Positions 20,301 through 35,402 of a DNA stretch of 64,000 nucleotides are shown here, piece after piece. How positions within the stretch are numbered: the stretch's first letter is position 1; each line of letters starts with the position of its first letter. The stretch spans positions 29,231,501 to 29,295,500 of the forward strand of contig NC_092568.1 of the NCBI RefSeq assembly GCF_037975245.1, written 5' to 3'. Below the pieces are notes generated by a model. It worked only from the letters and a program-made list of their open reading frames with translations. It had not been told where the DNA came from and did no database searches. Both the position numbers and the translations under genes were made by a program. This DNA is from Apostichopus japonicus (Eukaryota > Echinodermata > Holothuroidea > Aspidochirotida > Stichopodidae).

Positions 20301-23300
20301 CGTGTGGTCCAATAATTTGTCCAGTACTAAGTACTCACTGAGTTTTGTCCAGAAGGCAATTACACTTTCATCATAAATATTTAAACACATTCTTTCACCC
20401 CATAACTAAGCATGGATAGTTAAAGAACTGGGGATGTCTTTAAATTCAGAATTTTGACGACAGCGTTATTCAGCAAAGACAAGCTTTAGAAGTAGCTGTT
20501 TGTATTAAGTCATCAAGTCCTGGGAAATGGTCCAAAACCTTTTTGATACTACTCAAAATAAGAGAGCAATACAAAAACAAGAAAATGTCTAATTAACTTA
20601 AATTAAGTAAAATTAAATTTTCATTCAGTCCGACTGAAAATGTTGTACCTTAACAGTTTTCACATAATAGGCAAATAATTGCACACTTTTCCTTCTCTAT
20701 TGGAGACCCAAAATTAACTCTATTTAAGTTAAGGAGAAATTATAGGAATTTTCTTACTCTGTTTGAAAATTAAGGAATTAAGCTAATGAAACGCAGTGGT
20801 TTTAGTGTTCAACAATAAGGATTCAACACTTTAAATTTCACAAAGCAAGACCTAAAAGGAGGCTTTGAAAAAACAGTGTAATTTTATCAATGCAGACATT
20901 TTTGCAATTTGTAGCTTTTTCACAATTATTTGAAGTTAACATTTTTTGAGCTTATGAGAACTCTTCTACTCTAACTCTCTTTTCTCCTGTTGAACTGAAA
21001 ACTTGCCTACATGGAGTAAAGTACAAGCCATGCAATATTTTTTTAATTGCTTTGCTTTTGACACCAATATTGCTAATTAATACAACTTTTGTCAGTAGAG
21101 TTCCTCTGCAAAAAGTGCAATGTTTAATGATAAACTGTGAAATTCGGTCACTTTCTAAAAAAAAATATGAAGAAAAGTAGAATAAAAAGTCAGACCTCCT
21201 GAATAAACTGTTTTTCACATAAATCCTGCAAGATCCCCAAACACAGAGGACAGACCGGTAAATCTTTTGTTTGACATTTAGCTTGGTCTGCTTCTGCGTT
21301 TTCCTTCTCGTTCGGTTTTAAACCAGCACCTTCATTTTCCTCTTTGATATTCTGCACAAAAAAGGAAAATGAGTATTATTATTATTAGGGTTTGAATACA
21401 ATACAAAGGAAAAGTTATAATAAATCTCATTGTTCAAGGATATATGCATCCAATGTAATGACAATAGATATCTACATGTAATTTGTAATATTCTGCTATG
21501 TTTATGGTAATTCTTCCACAGGCTGAAAATTAATTCAGGATCCAAGTTGCATTTATGTCGATGAAAGAATCGACACAACTGATCTACATAATTTCAAAAT
21601 CCTCTAATTTGGCCCACTCCCCAATAAATATTTCATTACTTGAAACAGTGGGATCCACCTGATTTGTTCAAGACCAATCGAAGAGGGAAACACATTTTCA
21701 GAAGCATAGAAGGGGCCTCCTTAGTACTATGAATAGCTACCAAGGGTATCTACCCCATATAGCCCATGCCCCCGCTCCCCCTTTATGTATAGCATATTCC
21801 ATAACTTATCCTGTGAATTGGTGCAAGGATAATTATATGCTTATTAATGGTAAGAAAACCAAGGAAATGATTGTTGATTTTCGTGCAGTGCAAAGTCATG
21901 CCCCATTGTTCATTGACAATAATGTGATTGAGGTTGTATCAGATTTTAAATATCTTGGATTAACCTTCAGCAGCTTGCTTACTTGGAATACCCATGTAAA
22001 CAATATGGAATCAAAAGCTAAACAGAGATTATATTGTATTCATAGGCCTGCCGGGTTTGGCTTAGATTTTGATAAGCAGCTTTGGCTTTTTCAAACAATG
22101 ATGTTGTCCTTCCTTGTGTACTGTGGCCCAGTTTGGTTATCATCCTGTTCTAAAGGACAATTAGACTACTTGAATAAATCCATCAAGTTGTATTCTACCA
22201 TCACGGATGATTTCATTGATCGTATAATATGTCAGTGTGCTTCTTCTATAGTCGAGGATTCCGATCACCCTCTCTTTGATTTTTACATGAAACCACGTAG
22301 ATTTTACACGATCCCACGTTTGCGGACAGAACGGTTTAGGCGATTATTTTTACCTAGAAGTATTAAGACTTTGAATTGTATGATACATAGATAACTTTTT
22401 TTTTAAACCTATTTTTGAGATGCTGTAGTCCATTTTATTATATTGTCATTTTATGATGAATATCAATAAATTTTACTTGACTTTACTTATACTTTAACTT
22501 TGCGTACTGTGTTGTATATATGAAGCTGCACTTATAGACACTGTAGCTGCCGTTTTCATAAGTCAAATTGTAACCACTTTTTGAAACCAATTTTTAATCC
22601 ACAAAGCCCAGACAACAATGGTTCAAATTGCTACAGTGCAAGAAGAAAACATCAATTTTGTATTCTGAGGCATTTTAATGAATTATTTCACCTATTAACT
22701 AGAACTATACAATGAACTTCATCTCATGCACTCAAACTCAAACTAGGGGCAATTTTCTTTTCTTTGAACACTTTGACTTCAGAACCTTACAAGTATAAAT
22801 CTATCTCTCACTGACGGAATTTGATGAACTCATTTAGGTGTAGGATAGATCTAACTAAATTACAGAGCAAAATCAGAGACATATTGATAAGGGAGAACAT
22901 TTATGCTCTTTGCACCACGATGCTATCGTATACCATCCTACCAATTTATTGCTACACTGAGGGATTCAAATTACACTTCATCTTACCTCTTGTTTAGGGC
23001 TGAAGTAAGCTGCTTGACATCTGATATTTTGAAATCGAAGCTGACAACGGGGACAACAGTGACATTCTTGTAGAGCAGACAATAGTACTTTCCTCATTGA
23101 GTCATCTTCCAAGTTGATCTTTTCAATGGGCTAAACAGCAAAACCAGAAAACGAGCAAAATTGGTAATGAGACACATTTTCTGCATTGATGAATATATAA
23201 ACACTGAAAGATCTGGACTAAATTTCCATCTCAGCAGTATTTAAAGTCACCAAAATTAACAAAAAGATTAATCTCACCGAATGATTTCAATAAACTGTGC

Positions 23301-25377: not shown

Positions 25378-25381
25378 ATAT

Positions 25382-25981
25382 AGTCAGGTGGCTTAGCAAC
25401 TTTAACGTTACCGGCCGGACAAAAGTACCAAATTTGGCATGGAGTTTCTTTCCGACCTATCTATCGATTTTATCCGTGGAACCCACTTTATCGGTTTCGA
25501 TTTTTCAAGATGGCGGCCAAAATCCAAGATGGCCGCCAGAAAAAAGGAAATGTCATATATCTGGCTGTAAAAATCGGAGATGAACAAATGAGGGGTCAAT
25601 TCAGGTGTTTCCGGGGTCACTGAAACAGATTATGATCATGGCATGTTGCTTGAGTAACCCACTTCCAAGATGGCGGCCAAAATCCAAGATGGCCGCCAGA
25701 AAAAAAGGAAATGTCATATATCTGGCTGTAAAAATCGGAGATGAACAAAAGAGGGGTCAATTAAGGTGTTTCCTAGTTCACTGAAACAGATGATGGTCAT
25801 GGTATGTTGCTTGGGCCACCCACTTCCAAGATGGCGGCCAGAATCCAAGATGGCCCCCTGGAAAAAAAAAAGGAAATTTCATATATATTCATTCCCCAGA
25901 CCCCCTGTGCCCTTTTCTGATCGGGACCATCAAACCTTCCGTCCCCAAACGTGTAAATGAAACCGGGCTAGCACCCTGACT
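25382..25981 (+). mobile_element. Left arm: MITE-like unit, AGTCAGG ends, ATAT flanks
   Basis: Starts AGTCAGGTGGCTTAGC and ends GCTAGCACCCTGACT, with ATAT on both sides (25378-25381 and 25982-25985). Inside are three tandem units of about 160 bp, each starting near an AAGATGGCGGCC site (25507, 25667, 25828). No protein is encoded. Confidence 0.75.
25507..25858 (+). promoter_or_regulatory. Six YY1-type motifs, left arm
   Basis: AAGATGGCGGCC at 25507, 25667 and 25828. AAGATGGCCGCC at 25526 and 25686, with a degenerate version at 25847. The first form fits the YY1 consensus AANATGGCGGC. Paired sites are 19 bp apart. They are repeat units, so presence does not prove binding. Confidence 0.55.
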
Positions 25982-26092
25982 ATATGTTATGACTGGTATT
26001 CTAATTGTGTCACTTTGGTTCAGGAAGCCACATAGGACTTACTGGGGAACTTTGAGGTGTGATCGACCGTGGATAGACACTGTCGCAAAGCC

Positions 26093-27660
26093 GTTGGTGA
26101 GCTCTGGACAGCGGTAGCAGCGATGAAGAAGGGAAAGTCCCCGGTCCCGATGGCCTCCCTGCTGAGTTCTATCGGACCTTCTCGAAGGTTCTCGGTGGGG
26201 ACTTTAGAGACGTGTTCGCTACCGCTTTCCATTTGAACTACATGAGCCAAACACAGAGGGCTGGAAATATTGTTCTCCTCCCAAAGTCGGGAGACCCTTT
26301 GGACCCTAATTGGCGTACAATAACGCTGTTAAATCTGGACTACAAAATCCTGGCCAAAGCATTAGGAAATCGCTTAGCGGATGTGATGCCGGATATTGTA
26401 GGTCCTCTCCAGACTTGCGCTGTGCGAGTCCTTCGGATTGAACTCAGTGTTTATTCGTTGGGTCTCGTTACTATATAAGGACGTCACGAGCATGGTCAGT
26501 TAACGGATTTACTTCTGGTCCCTTCCCGGTTCGAAGGGGAGTCCGTCAGGGTTGTCCCCTCTCCCCGTTGTTGTATGTTCTCTTCAGCGAAACGCTCAGT
26601 ACCTCGCAGGACAGATGCTTGGGGTTTCGACCTTTCAATGTACCGGGTGGGGCTAGAGTTAAATGCGTGCAATATGCCGATGACGTCACTTGTATTGTGT
26701 CGGACCTGGTCTCCTTCAAGCCTTTATCGAAGGTTTTGGCCACCTTCCAAGAGGCTACTGGTGCCAGACTTAACAAGTCCAAGACCAAAGGGCTGCATTC
26801 AGGAAGTTGGCGCGGCCAATCCCTCCCGTTCGATGCTACTTGGTCAGATGTCATGATCAGGGTAATCGGCATCTGGCTAGGTTATGGTGCCCCGGAGGCC
26901 ACCACTTGGCCCGAGGAGGCTGATCAGGTGGAGGCAAGGCTCGACACATTCAATCGGAGGTGACTCTCCCTCCCTGGGAAGGTTACAGTTGTCAATTGTT
27001 TTATTGTTCCTCTCCTTTGGTATCCTGGTACGGTGATCGCTGCACCAGATTATGCCTTGGTGCGATTGGAGAGGATCATTTATTATTTCATTTGGGGAAA
27101 GTGCAAACCAAACCTTCTCCAAAGGACCGTTCTGTAAAAGACCCCCTTGAGCGGGTGGGCATGGTTTGGTCCACCTACCATCTTAACTGCGCTTTCTCCT
27201 TTTGAAAGGTTTTTTCGTTGCGTTTGAGAACCCCTCGTTTGCCTTTTTTGTTAGGTTCTGGAGTGGTTTTCTTTTTCGCCACTACTGGCCCGGATCCTTT
27301 TCCAATAACCGGCCAAAGGCGACACGCCCTTCGGGGGTGTATACTCAGATTGGTGACTCACTTTGCAGAATCAAAGAGGAGGGTGGGCCAGATGTTCTGC
27401 TGAACGTGGCCCCCTCGGCTTGCCAAACCGCCATCTCTCCAGATGTGTGGTGTTCTGTGTGTTGTAAGTCACTAGATAGCCGTCTCCGGGACTTGGCGAG
27501 GAGGATTGCACAGTGGGTCCTCATCACTAACCATTTTCACCTAGTCAGGTGGCGATTAGGTTATGGGATTTGTCCCTGTGTGGGCTGTAAAGCCATCAGG
27601 ACTATGCAACACCTTTTGCTGGAGTGTCCCTTTGTCCGGTTGGTGTGGGAATGATGGTTT
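26093..27660 (+). pseudogene. Inactivated L1/Tx1-like LINE reverse transcriptase
   Basis: Reverse transcriptase motifs occur in order but in several frames. First is a K-S-P-G-P-D-G-L-P-A-E-F block (about 26130-26170) with a frameshift in it. Next comes L-P-K-S-G-D-P-L-D-P-N-W-R-T-I-T-L-L-N (26279-26335), then R-G-V-R-Q-G-C-P-L-S-P (about 26535-26570) and Y-A-D-D (about 26672). Last is a C-terminal C-x2-C-type segment with H-L-L-L-E-C-P (27565-27640). The segment between Q-T-C-A-V and F-I-R-W, where the first catalytic aspartate of the palm normally lies, is deleted. The element cannot be active. Confidence 0.85.
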
Positions 27661-28036
27661 CACGCCTTCATTATTGGTGTTATTGGTTGTTATTGTTGTT
27701 GTTTTGGTTATTAGTGTTATTGGTCGACCTCAGATGACTAGTGACCCGACTTAGCGTGTGTTGTTCGCAGAATTGACGTTGTGTTTATGAAGGGTGCACA
27801 ATCGTACAAAATCTCTCAATGAGTCGGTATTCACATCTGGTCTGTTTTCCCTCAAGTTACCCTATTATATAGTTGACTCAATGCAATCAGTCTTACATGA
27901 CACTCGTAACTCCCATATAATAACGGGCTTTGCGACAGTGTCTATCCACGGTCGATCACACCTCAAAGTTCCTCAATAAGTCCTAAGTGGCTTCCTGAGC
28001 CAAAGTGACACAATTAGAATACCAGTCATAACATAT

Positions 28037-28645
28037 AGTCAGGGTGCTAGCCCGGTTTCATTTACACTATTGAGGACGGGAGGTTTGATGGTCCCGATCA
28101 GAAAAGGGCACAGGGGGTCTGGGGATTGAATATATATGAAATTTCCTTTTTTTTTCAGGGGGCCATCTTGGATTCTGGCCGCCATCTTGGAAGTGGGTGG
28201 CCCAAGCAACATACCATGACCATCATCTGTTTCAGTGAACTCGGAAACACCTTAATTGACCCCTCTTTTGTTCAACTCCGATTTTTACAGCCAGATATAT
28301 GACATTTCCTTTTTTTCTGGCGGCCATCTTGGATTTTGGCCGCCATCTTGGAAGTGGGTTACTCAAGCAACATGCCATGATCATCAACTGTTTCAGTGAC
28401 CCCGGAAACACCTGAATTGACCCCTCATTTGTTCATCTCCGATTTTTACAGCCAGATATATGACATTTCCTTTTTTTCTGGCGGCCATCTTGGATTTTGG
28501 CCGCCATCTTGAAAAATCGGAACCGATAAAGTGGGTTCCACGGATAAAATCGATAGATAGGTCGAAAAGAAACTCCATGCCAAATTTGGTACTTTTGTCC
28601 GGCCGGTAACGTTAAGCCTGAAAATTGTTGCTAAGCCACCTGACT
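28037..28645 (-). mobile_element. Right arm: inverted copy of the MITE-like unit
   Basis: Reverse complement of the left arm, with the same three internal ~160-bp units (sites at 28178, 28338 and 28499). The inner flank is ATAT. The outer flank is AATAT. Confidence 0.75.
28161..28510 (-). promoter_or_regulatory. Six YY1-type motifs, right arm
   Basis: Mirror image of the left-arm sites: GGCCGCCATCTT at 28178, 28338 and 28499, plus GGCGGCCATCTT at 28319 and 28480 and a degenerate one at 28161. About 0.9-1.3 kb upstream of the YY1 start codon. Confidence 0.55.

Positions 28646-35402
<6,757 letters not shown>

Follow-up and report, generated by a model that had tools for sequence, protein, structure and literature searches.

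Amphioxus YY1, according to the available text of PMC7481187, represses RAG-like genes and transposition and promotes post-excision joining, acting through the word GCCATCTTG in the ends of the transposon ProtoRAG. This word is the TR5 of ProtoRAG; human-cell extract shifted TR5 probes, and an antibody against human YY1 supershifted them (PMC7481187). In the 5′ UTR of the mouse retrotransposon L1 Tf, as far as the accessible portion of PMC11602158 describes it, tandem monomers each contain a functional YY1 site, YY1 activates and its motifs explain the synergy between monomers. YY1 genes themselves carry up to five YY1 sites within ~100 bp of intron 1, the outer ones oppositely oriented; YY1 binds this cluster in mouse brain, and in cell lines both promoter activity and self-regulation depend on it (PMC2743690, excerpted text). 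The same excerpts count four such sites in amphioxus, three in a sea squirt and none in fly pho, include a sea urchin interval in the alignment and report that Kim and others term the cluster unique to vertebrates (PMC2743690). Among the titles and abstract openings listed from the open-licence literature, no DNA transposon other than ProtoRAG was described as having YY1 sites in its arms.

Here we describe an inverted-repeat transposon of a sea cucumber that carries the ProtoRAG word in its arms and lies directly upstream of the YY1 gene. The window, the whole stretch of 64,000 nucleotides that was analysed, corresponds to C8:29231501-29295500, and genome-wide counts cover 671.6 Mb in 35 contigs. 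The element and its borders are as follows.

25378-25380, no strand: left target-site duplication, ATA (element ends aligned across copies)
25381-28646, no strand: inverted-repeat transposon, 3266 bp
25381-26092, plus strand: left inverted arm, 712 bp, first letters TAGTCAGGTGGCTTAGCAAC, three ~161-bp units
27926-28646, minus strand: right inverted arm, 721 bp, last letters GTTGCTAAGCCACCTGACTA, three ~161-bp units
28647-28649, no strand: right target-site duplication, ATA (element ends aligned across copies)

The 5′ end of the element reads TAGTCAGGTGGCTTAGCAAC and the 3′ end is its reverse complement, the two arms are 95.9% identical (714 columns compared), and 800 bp separate the element from the YY1 start codon. 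Arm lengths are approximate, as their outer limits were taken from the element ends and their inner limits from repeat I2 of a repeat search. Of the first 20 fetched copies, 19 had two defined ends, and in the remaining one (L002) the right end was not found. Identical 3-bp duplications flanked 16 of the 20 elements with both ends defined (these 19 and that of the window), with unequal flanking triplets in four (L001, L004, L005 and L011). Terminal inverted repeats with fixed ends, and a target duplication of fixed length at independent sites, place the element among class II inverted-repeat DNA transposons. An earlier note on this DNA had assigned the arms to a transposon, which the terminal repeats, the ATA duplication and the sibling copies bear out; its limits of 25382-28645 were right as to place and wrong as to the exact ends, and its estimate of ~600 bp per arm was too short.

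The element resembles ProtoRAG in being an inverted-repeat DNA transposon with GCCATCTTG in its ends, a word that is YY1-bound in ProtoRAG (PMC7481187 and PMC8289069, available text). In those texts, ProtoRAG encodes RAG-like transposase genes and has CACTATG termini, 5-bp duplications and a single TR5 at each end, whereas the sea cucumber element has TAGTCAGG termini, duplications of 3 bp and six sites in each arm, with no transposase that we could see. With neither a 5-bp duplication nor CAC termini, it falls outside the RAG/Transib type to which ProtoRAG belongs. The search for a transposase was made by eye among the printed stop-to-stop open reading frames (ORFs; cut-offs of 100-170 aa, with at most six per locus for part of the loci) and found none; a Pfam scan covered 6 of the 10 ORFs of the window, one of the six in trimmed form. 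Duplications of 3 bp also occur in Zator, EnSpm and AcademX (3 or 4 bp in the last; PMC10045372 and PMC12730594, in the parts available). EnSpm differs in its CAC..GTG termini, compared with TAGTC..GACTA here (PMC12730594, same limitation), so that the element shares the duplication length of EnSpm/CACTA transposons and not their termini, and is not a member of that group. The likeness to mouse L1 Tf lies in tandem units that each bear a YY1 site, predicted in our case, although the mouse array is a LINE promoter rather than a pair of DNA-transposon arms (PMC11602158, accessible portion), and the LINE sequence in our element lies inside it and derives from a LINE of which two source copies have no such site. 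By analogy, the arms may be viewed as combining the ProtoRAG and mouse L1 Tf designs.

All 12 exact copies of the 9-mer GCCATCTTG in the window lie inside the arms. The longer form AAGATGGCGGCC occurs six times, always in the arms, and was never seen in 100 shuffles; AAGATGGC occurs 12 times, again only in the arms, against a shuffle mean of 1.53 and a maximum of 5. Each ~161-bp unit contributes two direct sites 19 bp apart in a fixed orientation, giving six sites per arm, and the second site in the inner unit of each arm is the variant AAGATGGCCCCC. The pairs, located from pattern counts, are listed below.

25506-25537, plus strand: site pair 1, CAAGATGGCGGCC and CAAGATGGCCGCC, 19 bp apart
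25666-25697, plus strand: site pair 2
25827-25858, plus strand: site pair 3, inner unit, second site the variant CAAGATGGCCCCC
28162-28189, minus strand: site pair 4, inner unit, variant second site
28323-28350, minus strand: site pair 5
28484-28511, minus strand: site pair 6, closest to YY1

The earlier description of six strong copies and six related AAGATGGCC sites in two inverted arms, paired at 19 bp, agrees with these counts and positions once the inner-unit variant of each arm is allowed for. The site closest to YY1 occupies 28503-28510, 937 bp ahead of the ATG at 29447, in line with the ~0.9 kb given before. As predicted YY1 sites, all 12 fit GCCATCTTG and 6 of the 12, the strong form already said to match the YY1 consensus, fit CGCCATNTT (consensus per PMC7481187).

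The adjoining gene, previously named as YY1 from its sequence, has the zinc fingers expected of a YY1 orthologue. Its features in the window are the following.

29444-29451, plus strand: AAAATGGC, a YY1-type core overlapping the YY1 start codon
29447-29971, plus strand: first coding exon of YY1, 3′ boundary approximate (read from the sequence)
30261-30327, no single strand: YY1 intron-1 cluster, cores at 30261 (minus), 30274 (minus), 30307 (plus) and 30320 (plus)
34262-34417, plus strand: YY1 coding stretch, zinc fingers 1 (part) and 2
35109-35399, plus strand: YY1 coding stretch, zinc fingers 3 and 4, start approximate

Fingers 3-4 had as their best match the solved YY1 domain 1UBD, which we take to be human YY1 (E = 1.6e-43); within the fingers, a single change separates the two. 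In fingers 1-2, 52 aa matched 1UBD (E = 6.2e-39), with one change by eye; 1UBD stood sixth in that match list, behind many-fingered proteins that match repeatedly. Fingers so nearly identical to those of 1UBD should have conserved binding specificity and, together with the consensus fit of the arm sites, suggest that YY1 likely binds the arms.

The YY1 gene also has a cluster of its own. The 60.7 kb outside the element contain the core AANATGGC nine times, five of them at the start of YY1. Four of these cores are packed into 67 bp of intron 1, the first two in minus and the next two in plus orientation; with the other five cores as background, a cluster like this would arise somewhere in the window with a probability of roughly 3.5e-8. 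The assignment to intron 1 follows from the frame end of exon 1 and from the next coding stretch near 31999. In position, number and orientation, 30261-30327 resembles the autoregulatory cluster of other YY1 genes, which is host sequence occupying ~100 bp of intron 1 and not an upstream transposon (PMC2743690, excerpted text). By analogy, the module through which YY1 most likely regulates itself in this animal is the intron-1 cluster rather than the upstream array.

Genome-wide, the 32-bp site pair has 264 exact copies and the 20-bp tip of the element 165. The first 100 listed tips form 73 clusters, from which we extrapolate an estimated ~120 insertions with at least one intact tip, and we scored 40 of the 246 first-look candidates that a genome search with the outer 120 bp of the arm returned. 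Among the listed tips, 23 of 25 convergent pairs span 3.0-4.3 kb, the other two spanning 651 and 11098 bp. When arms were chosen by their tips, 37 of 40 contained at least one 9-mer GCCATCTTG and 11 of 40 contained six, with no 9-mer in reverse orientation across the 40. The site pairs and these arms confirm the earlier view that the motif belongs to the repeat family, and a motif shared by the family indicates that the sites were not made for YY1. On contig C1, no exact tips, site pairs or 13-mers were listed (the ordered listings start on C2), and at least 18 AAGATGGCGGC sites are nevertheless present there.

Three of the 40 tip-chosen arms had no 9-mer (L048, L056 and L057). The first resembles the arm over its first ~140 bp only. 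The other two, on C14, are a 59-bp mini-element with both family tips, ATG on either side and no YY1 site; they share flanking sequence and therefore probably represent one event. This mini-element may have been left behind by a deletion or may indicate that the tips alone suffice, and a motif-free mover of this kind suggests that the motif may be dispensable for movement, unless it was lost later. Two candidates for an autonomous partner were rejected. Spanning 11 kb, the tip pair on C10 (L021/L022) is an ordinary copy enlarged by an insert several kilobases long, in which no transposase was seen by eye among printed ORFs of 120 aa or more, and two ~8.7-kb spans on C2 (L065 and L066) are truncated copies inside a duplicated segment. 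A non-exhaustive inspection of long tip pairs and spans yielded no autonomous partner, and the family is apparently non-autonomous.

Between the arms lies a piece of a retrotransposon.

26101-27654, plus strand: broken fragment of a non-LTR retrotransposon ORF2 (reverse transcriptase) inside the element (RVT_1 profile, copy comparison)

The RVT_1 profile matched one interior ORF above its curated cut-off and a second below it, and a third had no match. Every one of the 19 fetched elements whose ends were defined has the same kind of interior as the window, its longest piece being 87.7-97.1% identical; across fetched copies, sibling interiors reach 97.7% identity with that of the window. The position of one match in the LINE protein search supports the interior of L002; the interior is also present in L024 and absent from the 651-bp copy (L023). 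That search used a 185-aa query from the copy L006 and scored 150 of 2713 candidates, among which loci on C16 and C17 have open frames of 1148-1158 aa and 92-94% identity. L006 is collinear with two fetched source-LINE loci over ~2.16 kb at 93%, inside their ORF2. Thus, a DNA transposon captured a LINE piece and then amplified carrying it. Neither AAGATGGC nor GCCATCTT occurs in the two fetched source-LINE loci, which indicates that the motif originates from the arms and led us to reject the idea, modelled on mouse L1 Tf, that the arms are LINE promoter monomers. The earlier note mentioned neither the LINE interior nor the copy number of the family, and it missed the start-codon core and the cluster in intron 1. 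Elsewhere in the window, a 243-aa open frame (21663-22394, plus strand) looks by eye like a retrotransposon remnant and has no Pfam match at E 0.01.

The form CAAGATGGCGGCC occurs 528 times, compared with once for its reversed control, and 96 of 100 listed copies lie within 5 kb of another copy or a tip, with four isolated. The form AAGATGGCGGC occurs 1159 times (control, 37), and 33 of 100 listed sites, all on contigs C1-C3, could be assigned to the family. The 9-mer CAAGATGGC occurs 6354 times (control, 2372), a number that, given the family size, implies that most weak sites must be outside the family. The suggestion that the repeats form genome-wide YY1 sinks therefore has support from the counts for the strongest form, which clusters with the family, and not for the weaker ones.

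A first conservation test appeared to favour the motif. It used 88 units from copies mostly picked by an exact 32-bp motif match, and was biased to intact motifs; of 149 twelve-base windows, the strong site came 2nd and the second site 22nd. The next sample comprised 42 loci chosen by tip, of which 37 gave 67 usable units in one phase and 35 gave 64 in the other. Among 150 windows, the ranks in the two phases were now 27th and 16th for the strong site and 55th and 72nd for the second site. The top rank vanished with the tip-chosen sample, and we dropped selection on the motif as an interpretation: no clear signal of it is left after bias correction. The strong site in tip-chosen copies has a mean identity of 98.7%, compared with 94.6-94.9% for the remainder, and the arm motif is not conspicuously better kept than the remaining arm.

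We consider it probable that the element is a copy of a recently amplified transposon whose sites are its own control DNA, and that its insertion near YY1 is a coincidence. The arms consist of ~161-bp units, each with a pair of YY1-type sites in fixed orientation, to which YY1 probably binds and through which, as in ProtoRAG, it probably tunes transposon transcription or end processing; the family took up a piece of a host-LINE ORF2 and spread with it. A use of the motif in transposition is proposed by analogy, with neither transposase nor partner found. The sibling identity of up to 97.7% suggests a recent burst, and hence that the insertion is not an old component of the gene; it probably has no selected role there. 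Its place 0.8 kb upstream of YY1 would most likely be due to chance, any effect on YY1, which is possible, being a by-product. The earlier note had instead read the insertion, if YY1 binds it, as a feedback array next to the gene; such an array would damp or raise YY1 transcription when YY1 is abundant. Twelve exact GCCATCTTG sites, all intact and six of them also fitting CGCCATNTT, do lie 0.9-4 kb upstream of the ATG, and YY1 autoregulation through clustered sites is known (PMC2743690, excerpted text). Taking position alone, simple arithmetic gives a probability of ~1.4e-4 that the 800 bp upstream of one named gene would receive any of ~120 insertions, which speaks somewhat against pure coincidence, although the figure is post hoc. 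Against a feedback role, the sites are ordinary for the family (six are also found in 11 of the 40 tip-chosen arms), the copy looks recent and the YY1 gene already owns its intron-1 cluster; we therefore regard the array as distinctly unlikely to serve such a role.

The repeated word might also be a binding site of the transposase, its fit to YY1 being accidental. In plant CACTA elements, subterminal repeats are transposase binding sites. The word here is likewise subterminal, tandem and fixed in orientation, and at either site the mean identity of the 9-mer is 97.6-99.2%, while the GC part that follows the second site varies between units. However, the match to the YY1 consensus is exact, the same 9-mer is YY1-bound in ProtoRAG (PMC7481187, available text), and AAAATGGCGGC, a YY1-type variant outside the commonest sequence of the family, is 7.5-fold more frequent than its reversed control (758 versus 101), suggesting that the host uses such words. 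This explanation is unlikely, although it keeps some weight. A broader proposal is that the recently spread family depends on YY1 through the tandem sites of its arms and supplies nearly all of the strongest YY1 words (96 of 100 listed CAAGATGGCGGCC), and that the insertion couples the YY1 level to an added array atop the older intron-1 feedback module, so that transposon load and YY1 homeostasis interact; we see this as a long shot. Finally, arm-bound YY1 could tether the transposition complex to YY1-bound chromatin and so favour insertion at YY1 targets, among them the YY1 gene and its intron cluster. The insertion does end ~1.6 kb from the densest cluster of YY1 cores outside the element in the window, but this is a single locus, and we hold tethering to be very improbable.

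After ProtoRAG, the element gives another case of an inverted-repeat transposon that bears the YY1-bound word, here with termini and a duplication length unlike those of ProtoRAG, and opens to direct testing the question of whether YY1 is recruited time and again by DNA transposons of animals. The dispersed strong sites, which number in the hundreds and include twelve next to YY1, form a natural test of whether such sites alter YY1 homeostasis, and the intron-1 cluster provides a comparison point for the age of YY1 autoregulation.

Among the 150 scored of 2713 candidates, copies of the source LINE and of a related LINE, with open frames of up to ~1170 aa, are concentrated in one block per contig, at 15.4-25.7 Mb on C17, 26-31 Mb on C16, 13.1-14.5 Mb on C11, 20.9-21.2 Mb on C12 and 16.46-16.49 Mb on C7, and these blocks are possibly centromeric. 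At one locus (L067), a full LINE is flanked on both sides by partial LINE copies.
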